Below are positions 5,493-22,806 of a stretch of 25,395 nucleotides of DNA, piece by piece. Below the pieces are notes generated by a model. It was not told where the DNA came from and did not search any database. It saw nothing but the letters and a program-made list of their open reading frames with translations. The position numbers and the translations under genes are program-made. The DNA comes from Pseudomonadota bacterium (GTDB lineage: Bacteria; Pseudomonadota; Gammaproteobacteria; Burkholderiales; Burkholderiaceae): contig JAJXUC010000040.1 in the NCBI GenBank assembly GCA_021783435.1, forward strand, positions 1-25,395. The letters are read 5' to 3'. Position 1 is the stretch's first letter; each line of letters opens with the position of its first letter.

Positions 5493-5771
5493 GGTGATCT
5501 CCGTTTGAGTACGCCCAAGGGCGTGACTTGCCGACGCCCCACCCCCGAGGGGGCCGAGAAATCAGGGAAACGGCCCCGCGTTTTCTTGAGGGGATGGCTC
5601 GCAGTCGTCGCGAACTTCATTGGTACTTGACATTTGTATTCCAAATGGCCGCTTGTGCCGGTGAACAAACGTAAGACGCGAAGCGAGATACAACATGCGA
5701 CGGATCCTTGTGCGCTGCACACAAGCCGTGGACGAGCCCTGCCGAAGCCGCGACCTTGCTAGGCTTGCGGC
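5493..5771. promoter_or_regulatory. Divergent promoter region with an operator-like inverted repeat
   Basis: This 279-nt region lies between the permease and recQ starts. It contains CATTTGTATTCCAAATG (5631-5647), two 6-bp arms around a 5-nt centre, in a locally AT-rich patch. It overlaps a TTGACA (5626-5631 area) that lacks a clear partner -10. A small GC hairpin (ACCCCCGAGGGGG, near 5535-5548) lies closer to the permease. Regulator unknown. Confidence 0.3.
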
Positions 5772-7643
<1,872 letters not shown>

Positions 7644-7849
7644 GCAGGGAGCTGTTCACGCCCGGCGGCCGTCGCAAGGGCCGGCGAAGCGCACGAACAC
7701 GTCGCTATTGCAGTGCAGCATCACGACTGTGAAGCAGATGTGACGATTTGAATTGCGGAAAGCGTGCATTACTTGGCACAAGCTGTCTGCGTCGGAAGGT
7801 AATCTGGATACATGTTCATCCCCATGAATCCATTCGACAGCCCGCTGCC
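7644..7849 (+). other. Intergenic region before the GGDEF-EAL gene
   Basis: This 206-nt gap has no recognisable RNA gene. A TTGGCA (7773-7778) could be a -35 element but no well-spaced -10 follows. The part from 7735 to 7830 is more AT-rich than the flanking genes, so the promoter of the downstream gene is probably here. Confidence 0.25.
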
Positions 7850-10264
7850 ATGAGCATCGTCTTTTCCGAGCCTGCCGACCCCCCGCGTCAACGCGATCTG
7901 CTGTTGCCCATGACCCTGATTGGCTACGGCCTGACCGTGCCGCTGATGCTGGGTTTTGTCTGGGCAGGCGCCTTGCCGCTGACCATCGCGCTGACCTATG
8001 CGTTCACCGGGCTCAGCGCCAATCCGGCGTTGTCCTGGATTTGGAGCCTGCGCCAAGAAACCGCTAGTGTTGCGACCTCGGCTTACTCGCAACCCAGGCT
8101 GATAGCCCGGATGATGCTGAACGTGGTCATCCAACTGGCCTGCATCGCCGTGGCGCCGCAGATCGGCGGCATCGTGCTGCTGATCCTGATCATCTTCCTC
8201 GGCCTCGGCGCGGGTTCGCTGCACCTGCCGGCGCGCTCGCTGCGCCATTGGATCCCGCTCGTCGGCGTGCTGGCAGCTCTGGCGATCACCGCCTTCGCGC
8301 TTGCTGGCGCCAAGCTCGGCATCCCCGTCGCCACCAGCCGACAGCGTTGGGTTTCCGCTGCGGCGTTCGGTTCACTGCTGGTCTACAGCGCCTTGCTCGG
8401 ACAGATTTTCACACGCGAACATCGCTGCGCGGCACGCTCGCGCCAAGCGCAGAAAACAGAATTTCGACTACTCCGAAAAATGGCCTGGCTTGACGACCTC
8501 ACCGGACTGGCAAACCGCCGCGCATTGCTCGACACCCTGCGCACGCGCCTGCGCAGCACGAAGAACTCGAAACTAGTTGTCGGTTTGATGGATCTGGACA
8601 ACTTCAAGGACGTGAACGATCGCCTTGGCCATGCCGCTGGAGACGCGCTGCTGATCGAAGTGGGCAAACGCCTGAGTGCTGTGCTGCACCGCGGCGACCT
8701 GCTCGCCCGGTTGGGTGGTGACGAGTTCGCCGTGGTGCTGCCGCATTGTCAGACCGAGCACCAGTTGCGCCACCAGGCGGCGCTCCTGCTGAAGACCATG
8801 GAGACTCCCTTCGTGCTCGAAGGCCAGGCCCTGTACAGCAGCCTGTCGCTTGGCCTGGTGCTGCACGACAAATCCGATGCGGTGGGCCCGGATGCGCTTC
8901 TGCGGCACGCCGATCTGGCCATGTACGCGGCCAAGCGGCATGGGCGCAGCCAGTACCGCATTTTCGACCCGAGCATGGAACGGCAGGTTCATGACCGCGA
9001 ACGCCTGCTGAGCTGGGTCAAGCTTGCCCTGCAGGCGCGGCAATTGGAACTGCACTATCAGCCCATTCTCACGGTCGATCCCGGCAAGAAAGCCGGGGAT
9101 CCTCGCGTCGATGATGTCGAGGCGCTGCTGCGCCTGCGCGACGACGACGGCTTGCACGACGCTGCCGAGTTTGAGGCTGTGCTCGATGACCCCCGACTGG
9201 CCGCTCCGCTCGGGCGTTTCGTCCTCGACACCACGCTCAGCCAGGTTTTGCGCTGGCGCCGGGATGGACGCATGCTGCGCGTGTGCCTCAACATCAGCCC
9301 GCAACATTTCCTGCAGCCCCAGTTCCTGACCGACCTGCGCGAAGCACTGGAGCGCCATCCGCAATGCTCACCGGAATGGCTGGTGCTGGAGCTCACGGAG
9401 CATGGCTCCGAACTCAACGGCCACATCGCCCACTACGTCGTCACCGCATGCCGCCGCATGGGCGTCGAGGTGAGCCTGGATGATTTCGGCACCGGCAGCG
9501 CCAGTCTGACGCATTTGCAGTTGCTCGAAGCCTCGGCGGTGAAGATCGACCGCCGTTTCACCAGCAACCTGCTCGACGAAAGCGCCGACCTCAGCATCAC
9601 CTATGGCCTGTTGCGCACGGCCCGGATGATGGGCCTGAGCGCCGTGGCCGAAGGCGTGCGCACACCCCGCCAGGCGCATGCCCTGGTGGCGCTGGGCTGC
9701 CGCAAGTTGCAGGGCTATGCCATCGCCAAGCCCATGCCGGCACAGGAGTTGGAGATCTGGCTGCAAGACTGGCCACAACGGCTCCCCTGGACCGCGACTC
9801 TGGCCTGGCAAAAGGCGATCGACACCGAAGCGATTCGCGCGGTGGTCGAACACGGCAGAAGTCTGGCACGTGCCAAGGTCGGCACGCTCGATGCCGGTGA
9901 ACGCGAGCGTCTCGCCCAAGTCGATGCCAGCAAGCGTTGCGCTCTCGGGCGCTGGTGCGAGAGCCAAGCCACCGAGTATGGACATGTCCCGGGTTTTCGC
10001 AAACTCATCGCGGACCATGAGGCCTTCCACGCATGCCTGCGCACCATCGCCGAAGCGCCGCAGGAAGACGCCGTGATTTACGTGCATCAACTCCAAAAAT
10101 TGAGTCTGTCGGTACGCGATCAATTCTGGAAACTGCTGCTGCACCCCATCCGGACCCAGGACATGGCTCCAGCGGCGCTCCGACTCGACCTTGCCGCCTC
10201 CACCTCCGAGCCCGACCCCAGCACGTCCTGCGCACCGGACTCGGCCCTCGAAGCCGGCGCTTGA
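7850..10264 (+). CDS. Membrane GGDEF-EAL protein with C-terminal zinc-binding CZB domain
   Basis: This 804-aa c-di-GMP enzyme starts with about six hydrophobic helices (residues 20-190), which look like an integral membrane sensor. The diguanylate cyclase domain has canonical GGDEF (289-293); the RxxD product-inhibition site is replaced by HRGD. The EAL phosphodiesterase domain keeps EALLR (424-428), LNISPQ with Asn480, ELTEHG, DDFGTG (543-548), VKID (563-566) and the Glu in AEG (600). Both activities could therefore be intact. Residues about 655-735 match a CZB domain. The ligands are His667, Cys696, His722 and His726, with 29/26/4 spacing nearly equal to that of the zinc site of E. coli DgcZ (His22, Cys52, His79, His83, from memory). 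Zinc would thus be expected to control the enzyme. The frame opens at 7748, but the ATG at 7850 directly precedes the first conserved part. Confidence 0.9.
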   Translation: MSIVFSEPADPPRQRDLLLPMTLIGYGLTVPLMLGFVWAGALPLTIALTYAFTGLSANPALSWIWSLRQETASVATSAYSQPRLIARMMLNVVIQLACIAVAPQIGGIVLLILIIFLGLGAGSLHLPARSLRHWIPLVGVLAALAITAFALAGAKLGIPVATSRQRWVSAAAFGSLLVYSALLGQIFTREHRCAARSRQAQKTEFRLLRKMAWLDDLTGLANRRALLDTLRTRLRSTKNSKLVVGLMDLDNFKDVNDRLGHAAGDALLIEVGKRLSAVLHRGDLLARLGGDEFAVVLPHCQTEHQLRHQAALLLKTMETPFVLEGQALYSSLSLGLVLHDKSDAVGPDALLRHADLAMYAAKRHGRSQYRIFDPSMERQVHDRERLLSWVKLALQARQLELHYQPILTVDPGKKAGDPRVDDVEALLRLRDDDGLHDAAEFEAVLDDPRLAAPLGRFVLDTTLSQVLRWRRDGRMLRVCLNISPQHFLQPQFLTDLREALERHPQCSPEWLVLELTEHGSELNGHIAHYVVTACRRMGVEVSLDDFGTGSASLTHLQLLEASAVKIDRRFTSNLLDESADLSITYGLLRTARMMGLSAVAEGVRTPRQAHALVALGCRKLQGYAIAKPMPAQELEIWLQDWPQRLPWTATLAWQKAIDTEAIRAVVEHGRSLARAKVGTLDAGERERLAQVDASKRCALGRWCESQATEYGHVPGFRKLIADHEAFHACLRTIAEAPQEDAVIYVHQLQKLSLSVRDQFWKLLLHPIRTQDMAPAALRLDLAASTSEPDPSTSCAPDSALEAGA

Positions 10265-14995: not shown

Positions 14996-16831
14996 TCAGC
15001 CTTGCGCCGCCGGCGTGGCGCGCAACACTTCGTCGAGCGTGGTGCTGCCCTCGGCCACCTTCAGGGCACCCGCCAGGCGCAACGGACGCATGCCGTCCTT
15101 CACGGCCTGCTGACGCAGCGCATCCAGCGGCGCGGCAGCGGCAACCAGCGTGCGCAAGGCCGGGCTGAACACCAGCAACTCGTACAACCCGACGCGGCCG
15201 AGATACCCGGTGTTGCGGCATTCCAGGCAGCCCATCGGCTTGTAGGGCGACACCTTGGTGCTCGGCTTCCAGGGCGTCACGGCCTGCTGGAAGGTGGCCT
15301 GGTCGAACGCATCGTCGGGTTGTCTGCAATGTGCGCACAAGGTGCGCACCAGACGCTGCGCCAGCACGCCGAGCACGGTGGCGCTGACCAGATAGGGTGC
15401 CACGCCAAGTTCGAGCAGACGGGCAATGCTGCCCGGTGCGTCGTTGGTGTGCAGGGTGGACAGGACGAGGTGGCCGGTGAGGGCGGCCTGCACCGCCATG
15501 TCGGCCGTCTCGCGGTCGCGAATTTCACCCACCATGATGATGTCCGGATCCTGCCGCATCAGGGCCCGCAAGCCATCGGCGAAGCCGATGTCGAGGCCTG
15601 CCTGCACCTGCATCTGGTTGAACGCGGGCTCGACCATCTCGATCGGGTCTTCCACCGTGCAGACATTCACCTCATCGGTCGCCAGGCGTTTGAGCGTGGA
15701 ATACAGCGTGGTGGTCTTGCCGCTGCCGGTGGGCCCGGTGACCAGGACGATGCCGTGGGGGCGGTTGGTGAGTTCGTTCCAGCGCGCACCCTCGGCGCTG
15801 GGAAAACCCAAAGCAGCCATGTCGCGCAGCACCACGTCGGGGTCGAAAATGCGCATCACCAGTTTTTCGCCGAAGGCCGTGGGCAACGTGGACAGGCGCA
15901 ACTCGATTTCGTCGCCCGTGGGCCGACGGGTCTTGATGCGCCCGTCCTGCGGGCGGCGCTTTTCCACCACGTCCATACGGCCCAGCAGCTTGACACGGCT
16001 GGTCATGGCGTTCATCACCGCAGGCGGCAGCTGATAAACCGTTTGCAGCACGCCGTCGATGCGAAAGCGGATGACGCCTAGCTCGCGCCGCGGCTCCAGG
16101 TGGATGTCGGAGGCGCGCTGCTCGAAGGCGTATTGCCATAGCCAATCGACCACCTGCACCACGCCGGCGTCATTGGCATCGAGAGCACGGCCGCTCCTGC
16201 CCAGTTCCACCAGTTGCTCGAACTGGTTGACCCCGCTCATGCCCGCCGTGGCGCTGTTCTTGTGCGCTTGGCGCACCGAGCGCGCCAGGTTGAAAAACTC
16301 GATGGTGTAGCGCGTGATGTCCACCGGGTTCGCCACGGCCAGCTGGATGGGCCGGCGCAGCATGCGCTCCAGCTCGGTCTTCCAGCCCAGGTCGAAGGGC
16401 TCGGCGGTGACGATGGTCACGCCCAGGGCGTCGGCTGCCACCGGCAGGATTCGATGGCGCTCGGCGTAGTTGAGCGAAATCAGATCGCCGATCTTGCCGA
16501 TGTCGACTTTCAGCGGATCGATGCGCACCAGGGGCATGTCGGCGCGTCCGGCCAGCCAGGCGGTCAGCTGGTCCAGATCGAGCGCCTTGGCGTCTGCAAC
16601 ACGCGTCAACCCGGCGTTGGCCACCTTGTGCAGCGCGTGCAGGCGCTCGCTGGCATGGGCACAGCGGTCCAGCCCCTGGCGCAGACCGGCATCGTCGATG
16701 AAGTCGTCGTCGTGGAGCCAATGCAGCACGTCGCGCCAGTCCAGCGGCCCATGCATCGCGCGCGGCGCGCTCTTGGGCTCGGATCGGGAATGAGCCTCAG
16801 CCTTGGGCGTTGCGGGCCTGGATGCTTGCAT
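14996..16831 (-). CDS. GspE/PilB/PulE family secretion or pilus assembly ATPase
   Basis: This 611-aa protein has an N-terminal MshEN/T2SSE-N-like domain (about 85-185, 'AYER'-type segment 'LISLNYAERHRILP'). The ATPase domain has Walker A GPTGSGKT (366-373), an Asp box before it ('RASDIHLEP', about 239-247), Walker B-region 'PDIIMVGEIRDRETADMA' and His box 'TGHLVLSTLHTNDAP'. A tetracysteine zinc motif follows (CAHC ... CLEC) before 'RNTGYLGRVGLYELL'. This fits type II secretion GspE and type IV pilus PilB ATPases. No other gsp or pil gene is in the window, so it may be an orphan whose partners lie elsewhere. Its first 35 nt overlap the end of the upstream DNA glycosylase gene. The DUF4197 gene follows it. 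Confidence 0.93.
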   Translation of the reverse strand: MQASRPATPKAEAHSRSEPKSAPRAMHGPLDWRDVLHWLHDDDFIDDAGLRQGLDRCAHASERLHALHKVANAGLTRVADAKALDLDQLTAWLAGRADMPLVRIDPLKVDIGKIGDLISLNYAERHRILPVAADALGVTIVTAEPFDLGWKTELERMLRRPIQLAVANPVDITRYTIEFFNLARSVRQAHKNSATAGMSGVNQFEQLVELGRSGRALDANDAGVVQVVDWLWQYAFEQRASDIHLEPRRELGVIRFRIDGVLQTVYQLPPAVMNAMTSRVKLLGRMDVVEKRRPQDGRIKTRRPTGDEIELRLSTLPTAFGEKLVMRIFDPDVVLRDMAALGFPSAEGARWNELTNRPHGIVLVTGPTGSGKTTTLYSTLKRLATDEVNVCTVEDPIEMVEPAFNQMQVQAGLDIGFADGLRALMRQDPDIIMVGEIRDRETADMAVQAALTGHLVLSTLHTNDAPGSIARLLELGVAPYLVSATVLGVLAQRLVRTLCAHCRQPDDAFDQATFQQAVTPWKPSTKVSPYKPMGCLECRNTGYLGRVGLYELLVFSPALRTLVAAAAPLDALRQQAVKDGMRPLRLAGALKVAEGSTTLDEVLRATPAAQG

Positions 16832-17393
16832 GCCCTGAGTGTAGAGCCTGGTTGAGGTCCGTCTGAGGATCCGAGCCTGCGCTGGCGATCAAGCCATGAC
16901 GGGCGAACACCAGGCGCCAAGCCTCCAGCTTGCGCGTCAAACTCCACGCCGCATTCGCCGGGCTGGTGGAAGGCAGGCGGTGGCAAACCGGAACGAGACT
17001 CGCAGTGACACGCATCATCCGCGCCGACTCGCCGCCGTTGTGGGCAATCGCCTGCAGCCTCGGCAACCGCGCCACCAACCCGGGCAAATCGTTCGGCCGC
17101 GCCTGGGTGATGGCGGTATCGAGGCTGCCCTCCCGCTCACAGGTGGCGTACACATCCCAGATGCCCAGACCGCGAGCCAGCACCGCCTGCAGCCGCGCGG
17201 CATAGTCGAGCCGCATCAGGTCCAGCTCGAACAGGGCGGCGAGCAAGGGCCAGAACTGGTTGCGTGGGTGGGCGTAATACTGCTGCGCCTGCAGCGACGC
17301 CCGACTCGGGAAACTGCCGAGCAGCAGCAAGCGGGTCTGCGCCGTGACCGCGGGCGGCAGGCCCTGTAAACGGATCGATGATGATGGGGACAT
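16797..17393 (-). CDS. DNA glycosylase of the UDG superfamily (deoxyinosine/hypoxanthine glycosylase-like)
   Basis: This 198-aa protein resembles the UDG family 6 group. The first active-site segment is 'LLLLGSFPSRASLQAQQYYAHPRNQFW' (quoted in part: LLLGSFPSRASL and YYAHPRNQFW). The middle part is 'GLGIWDVYATCEREGSLD', and the later substrate-binding loops are 'AIAHNGGESA' and 'LPSTSPANA'. Family members excise hypoxanthine or uracil from deaminated DNA. The frame is open upstream to 17522, but the ATG at 17393 puts the family's start at the right distance. The longer version would overlap the tRNA promoter region. It is the first gene of a minus-strand run (glycosylase, GspE-type ATPase, DUF4197) and overlaps the ATPase gene by 35 nt. 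Confidence 0.82.
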   Translation of the reverse strand: MSPSSSIRLQGLPPAVTAQTRLLLLGSFPSRASLQAQQYYAHPRNQFWPLLAALFELDLMRLDYAARLQAVLARGLGIWDVYATCEREGSLDTAITQARPNDLPGLVARLPRLQAIAHNGGESARMMRVTASLVPVCHRLPSTSPANAAWSLTRKLEAWRLVFARHGLIASAGSDPQTDLNQALHSGHASIQARNAQG

Positions 17394-17544
17394 CGTGCAG
17401 CCGAACGTCGAGAAGGTGCAACAGGATATGGAGAGTGCAATGCGCCCGGACAGGGAGTCGCGACAGTCGGAGGCTGCGCATCGGCTCACGACGGATCCAC
17501 TGTCGCTTGCGGTGCAACACACGGTGCCGGCAGAGGCCCCTGCC

Positions 17545-17550
17545 TATAAT
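17545..17550 (+). promoter_or_regulatory. -10 element of the tRNA-Gly promoter
   Basis: A perfect TATAAT lies 10 nt before the first base of the mature tRNA (17561). Transcription would start around 17556-17558, leaving a very short 5' leader. The -35 region (about 17521-17527, ACGGTGC) is poor, so activation by another factor or an upstream element is possible. Confidence 0.7.
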
Positions 17551-18017
17551 CGTGGTCCATGCGGGCGTAGTTCAATGGTAGAACTTCTGCTTCCCAAGCG
17601 TGCGACCTGAGAGTCGCCCAGTCAGCTGTGACTGGCCACACTGCTTCGAAGTGTGGGAGAGACAGCCCTAGAGTTGCGGTCCTCCGGGATCGCGTGGTCA
17701 GGCGAGAGCTTGATCGGATACGGCCCTCGGGTCGTGGCCCCGGCAAAACCGGGGTCGGGTTGTTCGAGCGGCGCAAGCCGTGAGATGAGTTGTTGCCCAC
17801 GCGGGAGCGTGTATGCAACTTGGCGTTCAGCCGCCAGTAGCCTAGGTGCAGTGCGGGGTCGGCAACGACCTCGTGCCGAGCGCACTGACAACGTAGCCAC
17901 CCTCGCGGGTACGTGATGCCCGTGAGGGTCGTCGCGTGATTCTGGAAGTCGAAATCCGGATGAGGCGCAAGGCTGGGTCAAAGGACCAACAGACGTGAAC
18001 CACTGGTAAATGCCGTC

Positions 18018-18022
18018 AAGCA
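18018..18022 (+). other. Exon-binding site EBS2
   Basis: AAGCA is complementary to TGCTT (17588-17592) of the 5' exon, one base upstream of IBS1. Its position about 60 nt before EBS1 is typical. Five base pairs is a short match, so this call is less certain than EBS1. Confidence 0.6.
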
Positions 18023-18082
18023 AGAACGAGCCAAATCGACTGACAGGCTCGGACCAAACGGTACGTGATCGGATGTCTCCCT

Positions 18083-18088
18083 GCTTGG
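18083..18088 (+). other. Exon-binding site EBS1
   Basis: GCTTGG is fully complementary to the last six bases of the 5' exon (CCAAGC, 17594-17599). It is exposed in the 9-nt loop CTGCTTGGT of a 7-bp hairpin (TGTCTCC/GGGGACA). The same six bases also occur in the embedded tRNA (18445-18450). Confidence 0.85.
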
Positions 18089-18363
18089 TGGGGACACGCT
18101 GACAAAACGATCACCGGCAGAAAGGTGGGGTCCTCCTGACCCGTGCTCGTCGCACGGAACAGGGTAAGCCCGTAACCGAGTCGCACCGCGAGGCGCGACA
18201 AGCCCGGTTGTAAAATCAGGTGCTTCGGTTGCGGGTAGAGGATCGCGGAGAAAGCGAACGCCGGGCTGTAATGGTCCGGATAGGGGATGCAACGATTGCC
18301 CCGACCCGAAAGGGTGCTGACTTCCGTGTGGTGGCCTGTCGCGAGACAGGTCTGCTCCAACCA

Positions 18364-18407
18364 TCCCGAGGGGACAGGCCCTTCGGGGCTGTCCGTTTCC
18401 CTCGGGA
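18364..18407 (+). other. Long hairpin directly upstream of the embedded tRNA
   Basis: A 9-bp outer stem TCCCGAGGG (18364-18372) / CCCTCGGGA (18399-18407) encloses an inner stem GACAG/CTGTC (18373-18377/18389-18393) capped by CCC-TTCG-GGG-like pairing. It ends 4 nt before the tRNA. It has no U tract, so it is not a simple terminator. It may be the proximal part of domain IV or help tRNA processing. Confidence 0.7.
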
Positions 18408-18411
18408 CCGG

Positions 18412-18485
18412 GCGGGTGTAGCTCAATGGCAGAGCTGAAGCTTCCCAAGCTTAAGACGAGGGTTCGATTCCCTTCACCCGCTCCA
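18412..18485 (+). tRNA. Complete tRNA-Gly(CCC) inside intron domain IV
   Basis: This uninterrupted 74-nt tRNA has an encoded CCA. The acceptor stem is GCGGGTG/CACCCGC (7 bp) and the D stem is GCTC/GAGC with loop AATGGCA. The anticodon arm is GAAGC-TTCCCAA-GCTTA (4 bp plus a G27/A43 mismatch; anticodon CCC at 18444-18446). The variable loop is AGAC and the T arm is GAGGG-TTCGATT-CCCTT. It is the same isoacceptor as the interrupted host gene but differs at many positions (6th acceptor pair, D stem, anticodon stem, variable loop, T stem). It is therefore not a fresh copy of the host gene. No separate promoter was recognised, so it is probably transcribed with the intron and released by RNase P and 3' processing. 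The reverse transcriptase start codon is 17 nt downstream. Confidence 0.93.
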
Positions 18486-18487
18486 CG

Positions 18488-18501
18488 TCAACGGAGGTTG
18501 A
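18488..18501 (+). promoter_or_regulatory. Shine-Dalgarno hairpin of the intron RT gene
   Basis: TCAAC-GGAG-GTTGA can fold into a 5-bp hairpin whose loop and first closing base hold the GGAGG Shine-Dalgarno sequence of the RT gene (ATG at 18503). It begins two bases after the embedded tRNA's CCA. In well-studied group II introns the maturase binds a domain IVa hairpin covering its own ribosome binding site; this small hairpin may be the local equivalent. Confidence 0.5.
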
Positions 18502-18502
18502 T

Positions 18503-20131
18503 ATGGACGCAAGCAATTGCGATGTTGCCTCCACCAACTGGACGCACTGGCACGGCATACCGTGGCAGGACGCGCATCAGGTGGTCGGGAGGGTGCAGGC
18601 AAGAATCGCGAAAGCAGCAAAGGCAGGCGAATGGCGCAATGTCAAACGCCTGCAGAGACTCCTCACCCGCTCCATCAGCGCGAAAGCGCTGGCGGTAAAG
18701 CGGGTCACCGAGAACCAGGGTCGCAAGACCCCGGGGATCGACCGGCAGACATGGAGTACTCCGGACGATAAGTGGCAGGCGGTCGGCACCTTGCACCACA
18801 AGGGGTACAAGCCGAAGCCGATGAGACGGGTCTACATCCCGAAAGCAAATGGCGACCGACGCCCCCTGGGCATCCCGACCATGCGCGACCGGGCCATGCA
18901 AGCGCTGCACCTGTTGGCGCTCGATCCGACAGCCGAGACGACCGGCGACACTCACTCCTACGGTTTCCGCCGTGGGCGCTCGACGGCAGATGCCATCGAA
19001 CAGGTGCGCAACGCGCTTGGACGAAAGCACTCGCCGGAATGGGTGCTGGAGGGAGACATCAAAGGGTGTTTCGACAACATCAGTCACGAGTGGCTGCTCG
19101 CCCACGTTCCGATGGACAAAGGCGTGTTGCGCAAGTGGCTGAAAGCCGGGTACTTCGAGGGCAATGCCCTCTTCCCGACAGAGAGCGGGACACCGCAGGG
19201 CGGGATCATCTCGCCCGTCTTAGCGAACTTGGCACTGGACGGTCTGCAAAGCAAGCTGGCGGGACTCTTCCGCACGGTGCGCGATGCCAGGGCGGCCAAG
19301 GTCAACTTCGTGCGCTACGCCGACGACTTCATCATCACCAGCAGTTCGCGAGAGCTGTTGGAAGAGAAGATCAAACCGCTCGTGCAGGAGTTCATGCGCG
19401 AGCGCGGGCTCGAACTTTCAGAGAAGAAGACGTTGATCACGCATGTGGACGACGGCTTCGACTTTCTGGGATGGACGGCCCGCTGGCAAGGCGGCATGTT
19501 GTTGACGAAACCAGCCAGGAAGAACATCAAGAACTTCTTGGAGAAGATTCGCGGGACGCTGCGGCAGATGCGCACAGCCAGACAGGTAGACGTGATCGAC
19601 AAGCTCAACCCGGTAATACGGGGCTGGGCTAACTATCATCGAAGCCAGATGGCGACGCGCACGTTCGCGAAGACCGACCATTTGATCTGGCAGGCGCTGT
19701 GGCGCTGGGCTCGCCGCCGTCACCCCAACAAGGGGGAGCGGTGGACCAAGGCCCGGTATTTCCGGCGCATCAAGGGTCGCGATTGGCGGTTCGCGGACAA
19801 GGACAAGGCGCTGTTGACGCTGGTGAGCTTCCACAAGAAGCCCCACACCAAAATCGACGGCAGCCGAAATCCGTACAGCCCGGAAGACGAGGACTACTTC
19901 GACGCGCGCCTCGCGCGCAAGATGGAGTCGGACTTGAAAGGGCGCCGGAAGCTGGCGTGGTTGTGGTACTGGCAGGAAGGACTGTGTCCGTGCTGCAACC
20001 AGAAGATCACGAAGGAGACGGGGTGGCACATCCACCACGTCATCAAGCGGTCGGAAGGCGGGTCGGAACAGATGAGCAATCTTCAACTGCTCCATCCGAA
20101 CTGCCATCGGCAACACCACGCCACCGAGTGA
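18503..20131 (+). CDS. ltrA: Group II intron reverse transcriptase/maturase with HNH endonuclease
   Basis: This 542-aa intron-encoded protein is complete. The RT domain (about 60-340) holds the RT-0/1 region 'VTENQGRKTPGIDRQTW', 'RPLGIPTMRDRAMQ', Asp185 in DIKGCFD, 'GTPQGGIISPVLANL' and the catalytic YADD (272-275). The maturase X domain follows (about 360-450, with 'LNPVIRGWANYHR'). The C-terminal HNH endonuclease has CPCC (495-498), 'IHHVIKRSEGG' (510-520) and 'HPNCHRQHH' (531-539). No frameshift or missing catalytic residue was seen. The protein would assist splicing, cut the target strand and copy the intron RNA during retrohoming. Translation starts at the ATG at 18503 after GGAGG. The N-terminal pattern fits the chloroplast-like class. 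Confidence 0.97.
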   Translation: MDASNCDVASTNWTHWHGIPWQDAHQVVGRVQARIAKAAKAGEWRNVKRLQRLLTRSISAKALAVKRVTENQGRKTPGIDRQTWSTPDDKWQAVGTLHHKGYKPKPMRRVYIPKANGDRRPLGIPTMRDRAMQALHLLALDPTAETTGDTHSYGFRRGRSTADAIEQVRNALGRKHSPEWVLEGDIKGCFDNISHEWLLAHVPMDKGVLRKWLKAGYFEGNALFPTESGTPQGGIISPVLANLALDGLQSKLAGLFRTVRDARAAKVNFVRYADDFIITSSSRELLEEKIKPLVQEFMRERGLELSEKKTLITHVDDGFDFLGWTARWQGGMLLTKPARKNIKNFLEKIRGTLRQMRTARQVDVIDKLNPVIRGWANYHRSQMATRTFAKTDHLIWQALWRWARRRHPNKGERWTKARYFRRIKGRDWRFADKDKALLTLVSFHKKPHTKIDGSRNPYSPEDEDYFDARLARKMESDLKGRRKLAWLWYWQEGLCPCCNQKITKETGWHIHHVIKRSEGGSEQMSNLQLLHPNCHRQHHATE

Positions 20132-20136
20132 GTCAG

Positions 20137-20249
20137 AGGACGTGTCCTGTGACGAAGAGATTGGAAGGCGCGACAGAGGCACGAACAGGTGCCGACGCCG
20201 AGAGTGAGAGGAACCGAGCGTGGCATGCTCGGCCGAATTGGAGGTGAAT
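20137..20249 (+). other. Domain IV spacer with two small hairpins
   Basis: The stretch between the RT stop and the DUF1232 gene contains AGGAC-GT-GTCCT (20137-20148) and CCGAGC-GTGGCAT-GCTCGG (20214-20232). The second hairpin covers an upstream in-frame GTG (20220) and leaves the GGAGG at 20240-20244 free, which supports the later start of the next gene. Confidence 0.4.
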
Positions 20250-20651
20250 GTGTCTGTAGCTGAACGGTTGAGAGGATGGGCGAAGAAAATCAAGCGCGAC
20301 GGCGTGACCCTTTGGTTTGCCTCCCGGCATCCCGAAGTCCCTTGGCCTGCAAAGGCTCTCGGGGTTTTCGTCGTCGCATACGCGCTCAGCCCCATCGACC
20401 TGATTCCGGACTTCGTGCCGGTGCTCGGCTACGTTGACGATGTGATCCTGCTACCGGGACTGATATGGCTGGCCATCAAGCTGATCCCCGCTCCCGTTCT
20501 TGGGGAGTGTCGCGATCAGGCCGACGAATGGATGAGGACGCAAGGCAAGAAGCCCACCAGTCGGGTGGGTGCCTTCCTAGTCGTCGCCGTTTGGATCGGA
20601 ACCAGTTGGGCCCTTTGGCAGTGGGTGATCAAACCGTGGCTTGGCATGTGA
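20250..20651 (+). CDS. DUF1232 (YkvA-like) small membrane protein, intron cargo
   Basis: This 133-aa protein has the DUF1232 core 'YALSPIDLIPDFVPVLGY' followed by 'VDDVILLPGLIWLAIKLIP'. An amphipathic basic N-terminus (AERLRGWAKKIKRDG) precedes the core, and a C-terminal transmembrane helix (about 108-128, 'VGAFLVVAVWIGTSWALWQW') follows it. Family function is unsettled; members are small membrane-associated proteins. The GTG at 20250 was preferred to the GTG at 20220 because GGAGG (20240-20244) stands 5 nt before it and the family core begins soon after. The gene lies wholly within intron domain IV, 118 nt after the RT stop, in the same orientation. It is not part of normal group II introns. 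Its effect on the host or the intron is unknown. Confidence 0.85.
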   Translation: MSVAERLRGWAKKIKRDGVTLWFASRHPEVPWPAKALGVFVVAYALSPIDLIPDFVPVLGYVDDVILLPGLIWLAIKLIPAPVLGECRDQADEWMRTQGKKPTSRVGAFLVVAVWIGTSWALWQWVIKPWLGM

Positions 20652-20741
20652 GCCCTCCGACACGCCAGTGTGTCCAAGAGCGACCTCAGGACTTGACGCC
20701 TCGCCGAACGAGACCAGAGTCATGGGACACGAAAGATCGGT

Positions 20742-20966
20742 ATGAACGACGACGAACGGACTAAGGGCGATCTGCGAGGCAAGCCCCATTCGATGCGATT
20801 CATCGAAGGCGGGCGGGCTGCGCTGGAGCGGGAAGTGCTGTGGGCAGTGGCGTTGGGGCGACCCAATGCCGACGCTCTGCTGCGCCAACTGCAAAGCCCG
20901 GCGAATGCCAGTCTGTCGGTTGTGCCGACGAGTGCTACTCAAGCAACTTTGCGGCGGTTACCATAG
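20742..20966 (+). CDS. Possible small ORF (74 aa) at the 3' end of domain IV
   Basis: This reading frame starts MNDDERTKGDLRGKPHSMRF and ends 30 nt before domain V. It has no recognisable domain and no transmembrane helix. The N-terminal half is charged and the middle (ALEREVLWAVALGRPNADALLRQL) could form a helix. The ribosome binding site is weak (GAAAGATCGGT). It may be a real cargo gene following DUF1232 or just open frame in domain IV. Confidence 0.35.
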   Translation: MNDDERTKGDLRGKPHSMRFIEGGRAALEREVLWAVALGRPNADALLRQLQSPANASLSVVPTSATQATLRRLP

Positions 20967-20996
20967 CCAGAAATGGCGGGTGACTTCAGGCTGCTT

Positions 20997-21030
20997 GAGC
21001 CGGATGCGGGGAAACTTGCACGTCCGGTTC
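20997..21030 (+). ncRNA. Group II intron domain V (catalytic hairpin)
   Basis: This 34-nt hairpin begins GAGCCGGATGCGG, has a GAAA tetraloop-type turn (GGGGAAACTT) and ends GCACGTCCGGTTC. It carries the invariant AGC-region near the 5' end, the two-nucleotide bulge side (CG in GCACGT) and the closing GAGC/GGTTC pairing. It is the only domain V found between 17600 and 21072, so there is a single intron here. Confidence 0.93.
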
Positions 21031-21031
21031 T

Positions 21032-21072
21032 TAGGGGGGAGGGGTCACCGCGAGGTGCCCTTCCTACCCGAC
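21032..21072 (+). ncRNA. Group II intron domain VI with branch-point adenosine
   Basis: A hairpin pairs a G-rich 5' strand (GGGGGGAGGGG) with CCCTTCCTACCC. A second stem CACC/GGTG is capped by a GCGA (GNRA) loop. The A at 21066 is bulged between CCT and CCC and is the 7th nucleotide from the 3' splice site, as expected for the lariat branch point. The intron ends in AC, fitting the group II 3' AY rule. Confidence 0.88.
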
Positions 21073-21135
21073 AGATAGCGTGGGTTCGATTCCCATCGCC
21101 CGCTCCACTCGCATTGACATTGCAGCGAAACTCTT

Positions 21136-21155
21136 CCGGCCCGGCCGGTTTTTTT
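21136..21155 (+). terminator. Rho-independent terminator of the tRNA-Gly/intron unit
   Basis: The GC-only hairpin CCGGCCCGGCCGG (stem CCGGC/GCCGG, 3-nt loop) is followed by seven T's. It lies 28 nt after the tRNA CCA and 27 nt before trmB, so it ends the tRNA transcript. Confidence 0.82.
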
Positions 21156-21181
21156 ACGCCGCCTCTCCGAGTTTCAGCACC

Positions 21182-21925
21182 ATGCCTGCCGCCTCACCTC
21201 CCGAGCCCGTTGCCGCAGCGGCCGACTCCACGTCGGCCCACGCACCGCGCGCACGCGGCATTCGCAGCTTTGTCCTGCGCACCGGGCGCACCACCACCGG
21301 GCAGGCGCGTGCGCTGGCGGAACTCGGGCCGCGCTTCGTGTTGCCCTACACACCGCAGGCAACACATTGGGACGCGGTGTTCGGCCGCACGGCGCCGCGC
21401 ATCCTGGAAGTGGGTTTCGGGATGGGCGAGGCCACGGCGCAGATCGCCCAAGCCCAGCCCGAGCGCGATTTCATCGGCGTGGAAGTGCACACGCCAGGAG
21501 TGGGCGCGTTGCTGCTGTGCATCGAAAAACTGGCGTTGAAGAATCAGCGCATCATTCAGCACGACGCGGTGCAGGTGCTGCGCGAGATGGTCGCGCCCAA
21601 CGCCCTGGCGGGCGTGCATGTGTACTTTCCCGACCCCTGGCACAAGAAGCGCCACCACAAACGTCGCCTGATTCAGCCTGGTTTTGTCGAACTCGCGGCC
21701 AGCCGGCTGGCGCCTGGCGGCTATCTGCATTGCGCCACCGACTGGGAGCCGTATGCCGAGCAGATGCTGGAGGTGCTATCGGCCAACGAGGACTTGGTGA
21801 ACACCGCCGCTGGCTATGCCCCACGCCCCGCCTGGCGGCCGCTCAGCAAATTCGAGCAGCGCGGCCTGCGTTTGGGGCATGGCGTGTGGGATCTGGTGTT
21901 TGAAAAGCGACCCATCCCTGACTGA
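21182..21925 (+). CDS. trmB: tRNA (guanine-N7-)-methyltransferase TrmB
   Basis: This 247-aa protein methylates G46 in the variable loop of tRNAs using S-adenosylmethionine. The SAM-binding motif is '[16 protein letters not shown]' (about residues 77-92), followed by the acidic strand '[12 protein letters not shown]' and '[12 protein letters not shown]'. The family signature '[19 protein letters not shown]' holds the catalytic Asp. '[12 protein letters not shown]' and the C-terminal '[17 protein letters not shown]' (TKFExRG.R.GH...D) are also typical. The frame extends back to 21080 across the terminator, so the ATG at 21182 was chosen. The N-terminal 25 residues are Ala/Pro-rich and poorly conserved. 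It lies immediately after the interrupted tRNA-Gly gene; co-location of tRNA and tRNA-modifying gene may be chance. Confidence 0.95.
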
Positions 21926-21957
21926 GACCCGCGCCAGCGAAGCCGGCGAGCATCGAC

Positions 21958-22806
21958 TCAAGCCGCCCAGTTGACCCAACCCATCTTGGCCGTCATCAGG
22001 ACTGCGGCACCGAACACCAGGCGGTACCAGGCGAAGGGCACAAAGCTGTGTCCACCCACATAGCGCAGCAGCCAGCGCACCACCACCAGCGCAGACACGA
22101 ATGACACCACCATGCCCAGGCCGAAGGCTGGCAGATCGGCGGCACCCAGCAGCGCACGATGCTTGAGCAGGTCGTAACCAGTGGCGGCCAGCAAGGTGGG
22201 AATGGCGAGGAAGAAGGAAAACTCGGTGGCTGCGATGCGGCTCAAGCCGAACAGCATGCCGCCGATGATGGTGGCGCCCGATCGACTGGTGCCCGGAACA
22301 AGGGCGAATGCCTGCGCCGCGCCCACTTTCAAGGCATCGAGCGCAGTCATGGCCTCCACGGTCTGCACACGGATGGCATCCGCCCTGGCCACCTGCCGCC
22401 GCTCGGCCCAGAAAATGACCAACCCGCCAGCGATGAAGGCCAGGGCCACGGGCACGGGGGCGAACAGATGGCGCTTGATGGCGGATGCGAACACCAGGCC
22501 CAGCAATGCCGCAGGCATAAAGGCGATGAGCAGGTTGCGGCTGAAACGCCAGGCGGCAGTGCGCCGGACCGGTTGACGCGAGATCAGGCCCTCCATCACG
22601 CCGATGAGGCGTTGACGGTAGTGCCACGTCACCGCCAGGATGGCGCCGCTCTGGATGGCAATCTCGAACACCTTGGCCTTGTCGCTCACCCAACCCAGCA
22701 GGCTGGCGGCAAGGATGAGATGACCGGTGGACGAGATGGGCAGGAATTCAGTGACGCCCTCGACCAGGCCGAGAATGATGGCGACGAATGCAGTGTGGGT
22801 GTCCAT
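21958..22806 (-). CDS. uppP: Undecaprenyl-diphosphatase UppP (BacA)
   Basis: This 282-aa inner-membrane enzyme dephosphorylates undecaprenyl diphosphate and so recycles the lipid carrier of cell wall synthesis. The catalytic motifs are both present: '[19 protein letters not shown]' near the N-terminus (E-rich motif, about 13-31) and '[15 protein letters not shown]' (about 165-179). Around eight hydrophobic helices are seen. The ATG at 22806 was chosen. A further in-frame TTG at 22821 would add five residues (MHTSR) and is less likely. It lies about 100 nt after the Nramp-like gene on the same strand and converges on trmB. Confidence 0.95.

Follow-up and report, generated by a model that had tools for sequence, protein, structure and literature searches.

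Group II introns in tRNA genes and the present locus

In bacteria, group II introns are found for the most part outside housekeeping genes, as stated in the accessible part of PMC4424553, and the nearest described case found for the locus reported here, judging by the accessible part of PMC2882425, is TeI4h, a group II intron of Thermosynechococcus elongatus that occupies the only tRNA-Ile(CAU) gene there and for which the authors infer splicing to a functional tRNA. The two introns are alike in being bacterial group II introns, in occupying a single-copy tRNA gene and in having good EBS/IBS pairings, whereas the accessible text on TeI4h mentions no inner tRNA and proposes that the tRNA is made by splicing (PMC2882425). 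Other self-splicing introns in bacterial tRNA genes, and to that extent similar ones, are the group I and group II introns at position 37/38 of tRNA precursors (PMC4033280) and a group I intron in tRNA-fMet (PMC3073962); the former site differs from the 40/41 site used here, and the available portions of both papers leave an inner tRNA unmentioned. The chloroplast trnK intron with MatK is likewise a group II intron with a maturase in a tRNA gene, with the difference that MatK has lost RT activity (accessible part of PMC4424553). Searches of the open-licence literature on introns in or with tRNA genes and on gene drives found no intron that carries a second copy of its interrupted tRNA, in keeping with the earlier note on this DNA, which knew of no described group II intron of this kind. 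To our knowledge, no tRNA lies inside the chloroplast trnK intron.

The stretch of DNA analysed, called the window below, is 25,395 nucleotides long and contains a IIB-type group II intron of 3473 nt (17600-21072; this and all other features of the intron and its tRNAs are on the plus strand). Its boundaries were drawn from the sequence and from an empty site in G001, the nearest genome compared, in which window positions 16091-17599 and 21072-22591 align at 98% and 96% and join at the tRNA. The intron ends are GTGCG...TACCCGAC, with the GTGCG at 17600 matching the 5′ GUGYG motif of group II introns, and the insertion point falls between nt 40 and 41 of a tRNA-Gly(CCC). This outer tRNA is thereby split into a 5′ half with nt 1-40 and the anticodon CCC (17561-17599) and a 3′ half from nt 41 to CCA (21073-21107), nt 41 being the +1 (IBS3) base; when joined, the halves give a 74-nt tRNA-Gly(CCC) by ARAGORN, identical in all 74 letters to the uninterrupted gene of G001. 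The Rfam model group-II-D1D4-7 (RF02012) matches at 17819-17967 (97.5 bits) and RF00029, the group II 3′ part with domains V and VI, at 20995-21072 up to the 3′ splice site (65.5 bits), the branch A by inspection probably being 21066.

The IEP (18503-20131, 542 aa) has RVT_N, RVT_1, GIIM and HNH domains, i.e. the RT, maturase and endonuclease domains of a group II intron protein (PF00078, PF13655, PF08388, PF01844), scores 375.8 bits against TIGR04416, and uses GGG for 14 of its 38 glycine codons. The closest solved chain is 6me0_C (E 1.9e-185), which we take to be TeI4h. A second domain IV ORF of 143 aa (20220-20651; DUF1232/YkvA, PF06803, 50 bits) follows the IEP and looks like acquired cargo; named homologues occur in Burkholderiales, e.g. 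Polaromonas and Acidovorax, and relatives at only 43-53% were present in three of seven genomes searched. A crude promoter scan of 17400-21300, in which 0.6 would be expected by chance, found none, which counts against the rescue reading considered below.

The inner tRNA among related introns

A second, complete tRNA-Gly(CCC) with encoded CCA occupies 18412-18485 in domain IV of the intron, directly 3′ of a DIVa-like hairpin (18364-18407; fold of 18350-18520, z -4.2) and just 5′ of the IEP, from which it is separated by a 17-nt stretch between CCA and ATG that contains a Shine-Dalgarno-like GGAGG (18493-18497). The earlier note had proposed exactly this arrangement, an intact tRNA-Gly(CCC) with CCA inside domain IV of an intron that splits a tRNA-Gly(CCC), and had allowed that the segment might fail to score as a tRNA; ARAGORN calls it and Rfam RF00005 gives 66.5 bits (gathering score 29, E 1.1e-12). 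The gene has a cloverleaf, a CCC anticodon, CCA and, among relatives, compensatory changes, and it includes the letters G1:C72, C2:G71, U73, C35 and C36, which presumably are the GlyRS identity set. It differs from the outer tRNA at 15 of 74 positions across the acceptor, D, anticodon and T stems. The earlier statements that the two differ along most stems and that the inner one is no recent duplicate of the outer thus stand for the window; recent duplication of the outer gene, ruled out here, is nearly true in L024 and L030, with two differences each. In Piscinibacter sakaiensis 201-F6 the two tRNAs are unlike at 13 of 74 positions. Elsewhere in the window, ARAGORN also calls a 94-nt tRNA-Ala(AGC) at 5699-5792 on the minus strand, without Rfam support and probably false.

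Relatives were sought by scanning one genome per species from 84,980 species with two peptide patterns, by which at least 579 relatives were confirmed and the best 80 kept; 36 IEPs were aligned. Among these best 80 of at least 579, 31 loci (L001-L030 and L035) end at a tRNA-Gly(CCC) 3′ half, and the outer 5′ half was seen in 30 of them, the contig of L001 being too short. ARAGORN found an inner tRNA-Gly(CCC) in 29 of the 31; that of L028 is intact and parted from its IEP by an island, and that of L015 holds a run of N. A complete inner copy is therefore present in 31 of 32 introns including the window, with an assembly gap in the remaining one, and they carry an intact copy of the gene they interrupt as a home-and-rescue element would. 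The earlier note had asked for a search of related tRNA-interrupting introns and had foreseen that relatives lacking the tRNA would mark a one-off assembly artefact; the tRNA is there in the relatives, and an artefact is ruled out by recurrence of the layout in other genomes together with the empty site. The layout is real and general within one intron lineage: in a midpoint-rooted tree of 47 IEPs, the 31 tRNA carriers included (window plus 30 loci) cluster together at 100/99 support; L015 and, for a stop codon, L044 were left out of this tree. In the other 49 of the best 80 loci ARAGORN found no tRNA within 1000 bases of the IEP start, the upstream sequence being only 5 bases in L079 and just under 1000 in L054 and L075, and it printed none for 80 viral-contig loci (L081-L160).

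By record titles and taxonomy the carriers belong to Burkholderiales, Rhodocyclales, Gallionellaceae, Lysobacterales, Nevskiaceae and less defined MAGs, mostly beta- and gammaproteobacterial records, and named strains include Piscinibacter sakaiensis 201-F6, Piscinibacter defluvii SH-1, Duganella alba FT9W and Solimonas fluminis HR-BB. The loci are not all independent, as L027 and L035 have identical IEPs despite bins named for different phyla (Planctomycetota and Proteobacteria) and L014 and L015 look like one strain. A further member surfaced among 200 genomes drawn from the window's order (G185, C59 8366-10088), with an IEP 72% identical and an inner-type tRNA about 50 bases before the IEP match. 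One IEP of the tRNA-carrying group per genome was the rule in 23 of 23 intron-bearing genomes searched, G015 having also a 54% IEP. The intron ends in CC before the exon in L006-L012, L014-L017, L019-L022 and L024, as opposed to AC in the window, so that the penultimate A is missing. In L023 (Massilia sp. Bi118) the insertion in domain V (6684-9142), which has a 605-aa ORF, resembles by eye another group II intron and would make this locus a twintron; it is thus no clean knock-out.

The inner tRNA is conserved as a tRNA. In a cloverleaf test on 21 of 31 inner tRNAs, 97.7% of cells were paired, against 44-54% in slid controls, and two-sided changes occurred in 7 of 21 stem pairs; further pair types were no more numerous than expected from shuffles, 314 of 500 of which reached the same number. 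Over 29 loci mean identity is 87% for the inner tRNA, 51% for the 90 nt upstream and 72% for the first 600 nt of the IEP gene.

Uninterrupted tRNA-Gly(CCC) was counted with a pattern allowing no mismatches in 14 plus 15 intron-bearing genomes, the genomes of L015 and L027 being excluded. The inner copy was matched in all 29 and was the sole intact tRNA-Gly(CCC) match in 27; one extra match each occurred in G005, apparently an empty-site allele with two indels, and in G293, an odd match. The G005 sequence (L165) is an uninterrupted tRNA-Gly(CCC) in the same MAG as L005 with similar flanks, probably from a second strain with an empty site. In the 200 genomes of the window's order there was exactly one match in 148 and none in 52. 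One of the 148 was the inner copy of G185, leaving 147 natives for comparison; these were checked by an IEP search at E 1e-180, so that introns whose IEP falls short of that would be missed.

Target recognition and the 29:41 pair

EBS1 (GCTTGG, 18083-18088) pairs over 6 bp with IBS1 (CCAAGC, 17594-17599; tRNA nt 35-40, overlapping the anticodon) and is identical in the relatives aligned, while EBS2 (18018-18022; AAGCA in the window, AAGCT in most relatives) pairs with IBS2 (TGCTT, 17588-17592; tRNA nt 29-33). EBS3, the base A at 18122, was placed by covariation with the +1 exon base in outgroup loci, read by eye, and is complementary to that base in all 32 readable of 49 outgroup loci (T/A in 30, A/T in two, L059 and L060). 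In the window itself EBS1 pairs at 6/6 and EBS2 at 5/5 positions, and EBS3 is unpaired, the window's own +1 base also being A. Across 30 tRNA-carrying introns, a tally that excludes L001 and L015 as unreadable, each intron's EBS3 is complementary to its outer nt 41 in 29, with the window as the sole miss, and nt 29 fits EBS2 in 26 outer tRNAs as against three inner ones; covariation of EBS2 taken alone is weak. In the tRNA introns the +1 base corresponds to tRNA nt 41. Its partner in the folded tRNA is nt 29, with which IBS2 begins, so that a single anticodon-stem pair holds two recognition bases. The place of insertion and the pairings follow from sequence and covariation. By these pairings the intron RNP would recognise the anticodon arm through EBS1 (nt 35-40), EBS2 (nt 29-33) and EBS3 (nt 41) and insert between nt 40 and 41, presumably by retrohoming.

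At this pair inner and native tRNAs have quite different compositions. The 29:41 pair is U:A in 16, G:C in 12 and A:U in three of the 31 readable inner tRNAs, and A:U in 132, U:A in 12 and G:C in three of the 147 natives; counted by distinct anticodon arms, U41 is found in 1/15 inner and 26/34 native arms (Fisher p 5.6e-6). Inner nt 41 fails to pair with the intron's own EBS3 in 28 of 30 introns and pairs with it in two, the window and L011. The inner and outer tRNAs of L024, and likewise those of L030, are identical but for nt 29 and 41. A mirror case is seen in L018, where EBS2 has A and EBS3 has T, the outer tRNA has T29/A41 and the inner has A29/U41. In L027/L035 EBS3 is T, the host has A41 and the inner tRNA C41, and in L030, their tree neighbour, EBS3 is A and the inner base A. 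With U:A or G:C in place of the A:U of the target, as in most relatives, the stem would be kept and the EBS3 pairing and the Watson-Crick EBS2 pairing of nt 29 lost, which would make the spare a poor target; by pairing, the inner tRNA is mostly such a target and is predicted to resist its own intron in most relatives. The earlier reader had missed that the inner tRNA mostly lacks pairing with its own EBS3, and also that some inner types are identical to tRNAs native to other taxa.

Several points count against the predicted resistance. The EBS3 rule has two exceptions. In one, the window, EBS3 is unpaired with its own target A41 and would pair with inner U41, and EBS2 favours the outer tRNA. 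In the other exception, L011, the inner tRNA fits both EBS2 and EBS3. Among 26 introns tabulated, inner nt 29 could still wobble-pair with EBS2 in a further eight, and the inner IBS1 is unchanged in 24, so EBS1 would still bind the inner tRNA. A tailoring of each spare to its own host, with inner nt 41 differing more often from its own outer tRNA than from those of other loci, was also considered and is unsupported, as it differs from its own in 26/27 introns (L021, with a 75-nt inner tRNA, was excluded from the position comparison) and from the outer tRNAs of other loci in 87%. The signal therefore lies in the set and not in the match of each spare to its host, and because the loci are related, 30 introns are not 30 events and the resistance signal rests on few independent switches.

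An explanation without selection for immunity would be that the inner tRNAs are copied natives and that resistant types abound simply because natives surviving near such introns are themselves resistant. The window inner tRNA equals a match in G230 over 60 letters, in a genome without an IEP at E 1e-180, and the inner tRNA of L003 equals the native of G001, so that some inner types equal natives of other taxa and replacement by capture is suggested. There is also a supply of such natives, since 15 of the 147 lack A:U at 29:41. Capture alone would not account for L024 and L030, where the inner tRNA matches the gene of its own host save at nt 29 and 41, nor readily for the change from EBS3 T with inner C in L027/L035 to EBS3 A with inner A in neighbouring L030, even though these amount to few independent switches. 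We regard such a bias as unlikely to be the whole explanation, while giving it some weight, and selection for resistance may have acted on the spare.

A possible rescue copy and its likeness to known elements

The reading that we consider probable is that this group II intron, which interrupts tRNA-Gly(CCC), carries in domain IV a rescue copy predicted, for most relatives, to escape targeting by the intron that bears it. That the inner tRNA stands in for the interrupted gene, as the earlier note suggested, is the best-supported reading of the sequences, the inner copy being the only intact match in nearly all genomes counted and remaining intact where the intron itself has been split. There are two such cases. 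In L018 an element resembling an IS by eye splits domain I, leaving the pieces on contigs C32 and C33. In L028 (Solimonas fluminis; L173, L182) an apparent island of about 89 kb adjoins the inner tRNA at its 3′ end; a remnant of a tRNA 3′ end precedes the IEP, and an ORF beside the inner tRNA resembles a tyrosine integrase by eye. Loss of the inner tRNA in L028 was considered and ruled out, as the tRNA proved to be whole beyond the island at its 3′ end. Both genomes keep an intact inner tRNA as their only tRNA-Gly(CCC) match, so that these hosts probably depend on it. In the L018 genome (G010 C32, L179) the outer 5′ half has one D-loop letter unlike the G257 match, possibly through decay after the intron was split.

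It could be instead that the outer tRNA alone matters, the intron splicing well, as argued for TeI4h in tRNA-Ile(CAU) in the accessible part of PMC2882425, with the inner copy a minor extra. The splice-site features and both outer halves are intact and the joined outer tRNA is the native tRNA, so splicing may suffice, and this counts against the rescue reading. Efficient splicing would leave the conserved inner copy of the relatives unexplained, however, and cis splicing is unlikely in L018 and L028; we find the outer tRNA alone a rather unlikely answer. The tRNA-Gly(UCC) pattern was matched in 13 of 15 genomes. Because GGG can be decoded through wobble by tRNA-Gly(UCC), cells may manage without the CCC gene, and the gain from the inner tRNA may be one of fitness rather than survival.

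A different role for the inner tRNA would be that of a processing signal, kept because RNase P and 3′-end cleavage free the IEP mRNA (tRNA punctuation), with its coding identity incidental. The tRNA does adjoin the IEP, with 15-18 nt between the inner CCA and the IEP start in 28 of 29 loci and a Shine-Dalgarno-like GGAGG or GGGGG in the gap. For this purpose any tRNA would do, yet it is the broken isoacceptor, Gly(CCC), in 31 of 32 introns, which is to say in all readable ones, and punctuation predicts neither the switched 29:41 pair nor the usual status as sole intact copy. We think processing quite improbable as the sole reason for the tRNA, and the processing and rescue roles could coexist. 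That the inner tRNA is a passive relic, caught once in an ancestor and carried without function, agrees with the carriers forming one group in the IEP tree and is scarcely credible given a tRNA far more conserved than the 90 nt upstream of it, with two-sided stem changes, and intact in split introns.

Taking the rescue reading further, the tRNA-Gly(CCC) gene, once interrupted, would yield its product slowly or not at all, and the inner tRNA would be transcribed with the intron, released by RNase P and 3′-end enzymes, charged, and so supply tRNA-Gly(CCC) at once, whether or not the intron is spliced; this may, as the earlier note held, remove the cost of insertion. Splicing of the outer tRNA would still be possible and may add to the supply. 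Counting against this scheme, retrohoming requires the full-length RNA, which cleavage by RNase P within domain IV would destroy. On balance we lean toward a natural home-and-rescue retroelement that breaks its host's only tRNA-Gly(CCC) and supplies a target-immune copy, turning a cost into dependence, and in which EBS2/EBS3 and the 29:41 pair of the spare would coevolve, flipping together in hosts with the other tRNA type. Every member found interrupts a tRNA gene for which the pattern indicates a single copy in most of the genomes searched, and the records come from several families.

Integrative elements that target tRNA genes by means of tyrosine integrases insert in them and restore the 3′ end by site-specific recombination, leaving a whole tRNA gene. 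The earlier note had likened the intron to these elements, with a different means, and the comparison holds for the outcome alone: G001 shows a clean 40/41 insertion with no 3′-end repeat at the boundaries, the protein is an RT/HNH protein, and the intron carries a whole second gene. Such elements may have a more direct part in L028, where the island seems to use the inner tRNA as they do. As far as the literature searches reach, the strategy is new within a known class of element. The rescue in synthetic home-and-rescue drives is recoded. Those drives combine homing into a target gene with a rescue of that gene (accessible part of PMC7968924), as is proposed here; they differ in being engineered CRISPR systems in insects, whereas the present element is a natural retroelement guided by RNA base pairing. 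If the rescue reading is true, the intron would be the equivalent in nature of engineered home-and-rescue drives, and its sequence would reveal guide as well as spare, so that retargeting and immunity would be testable by single base-pair changes.
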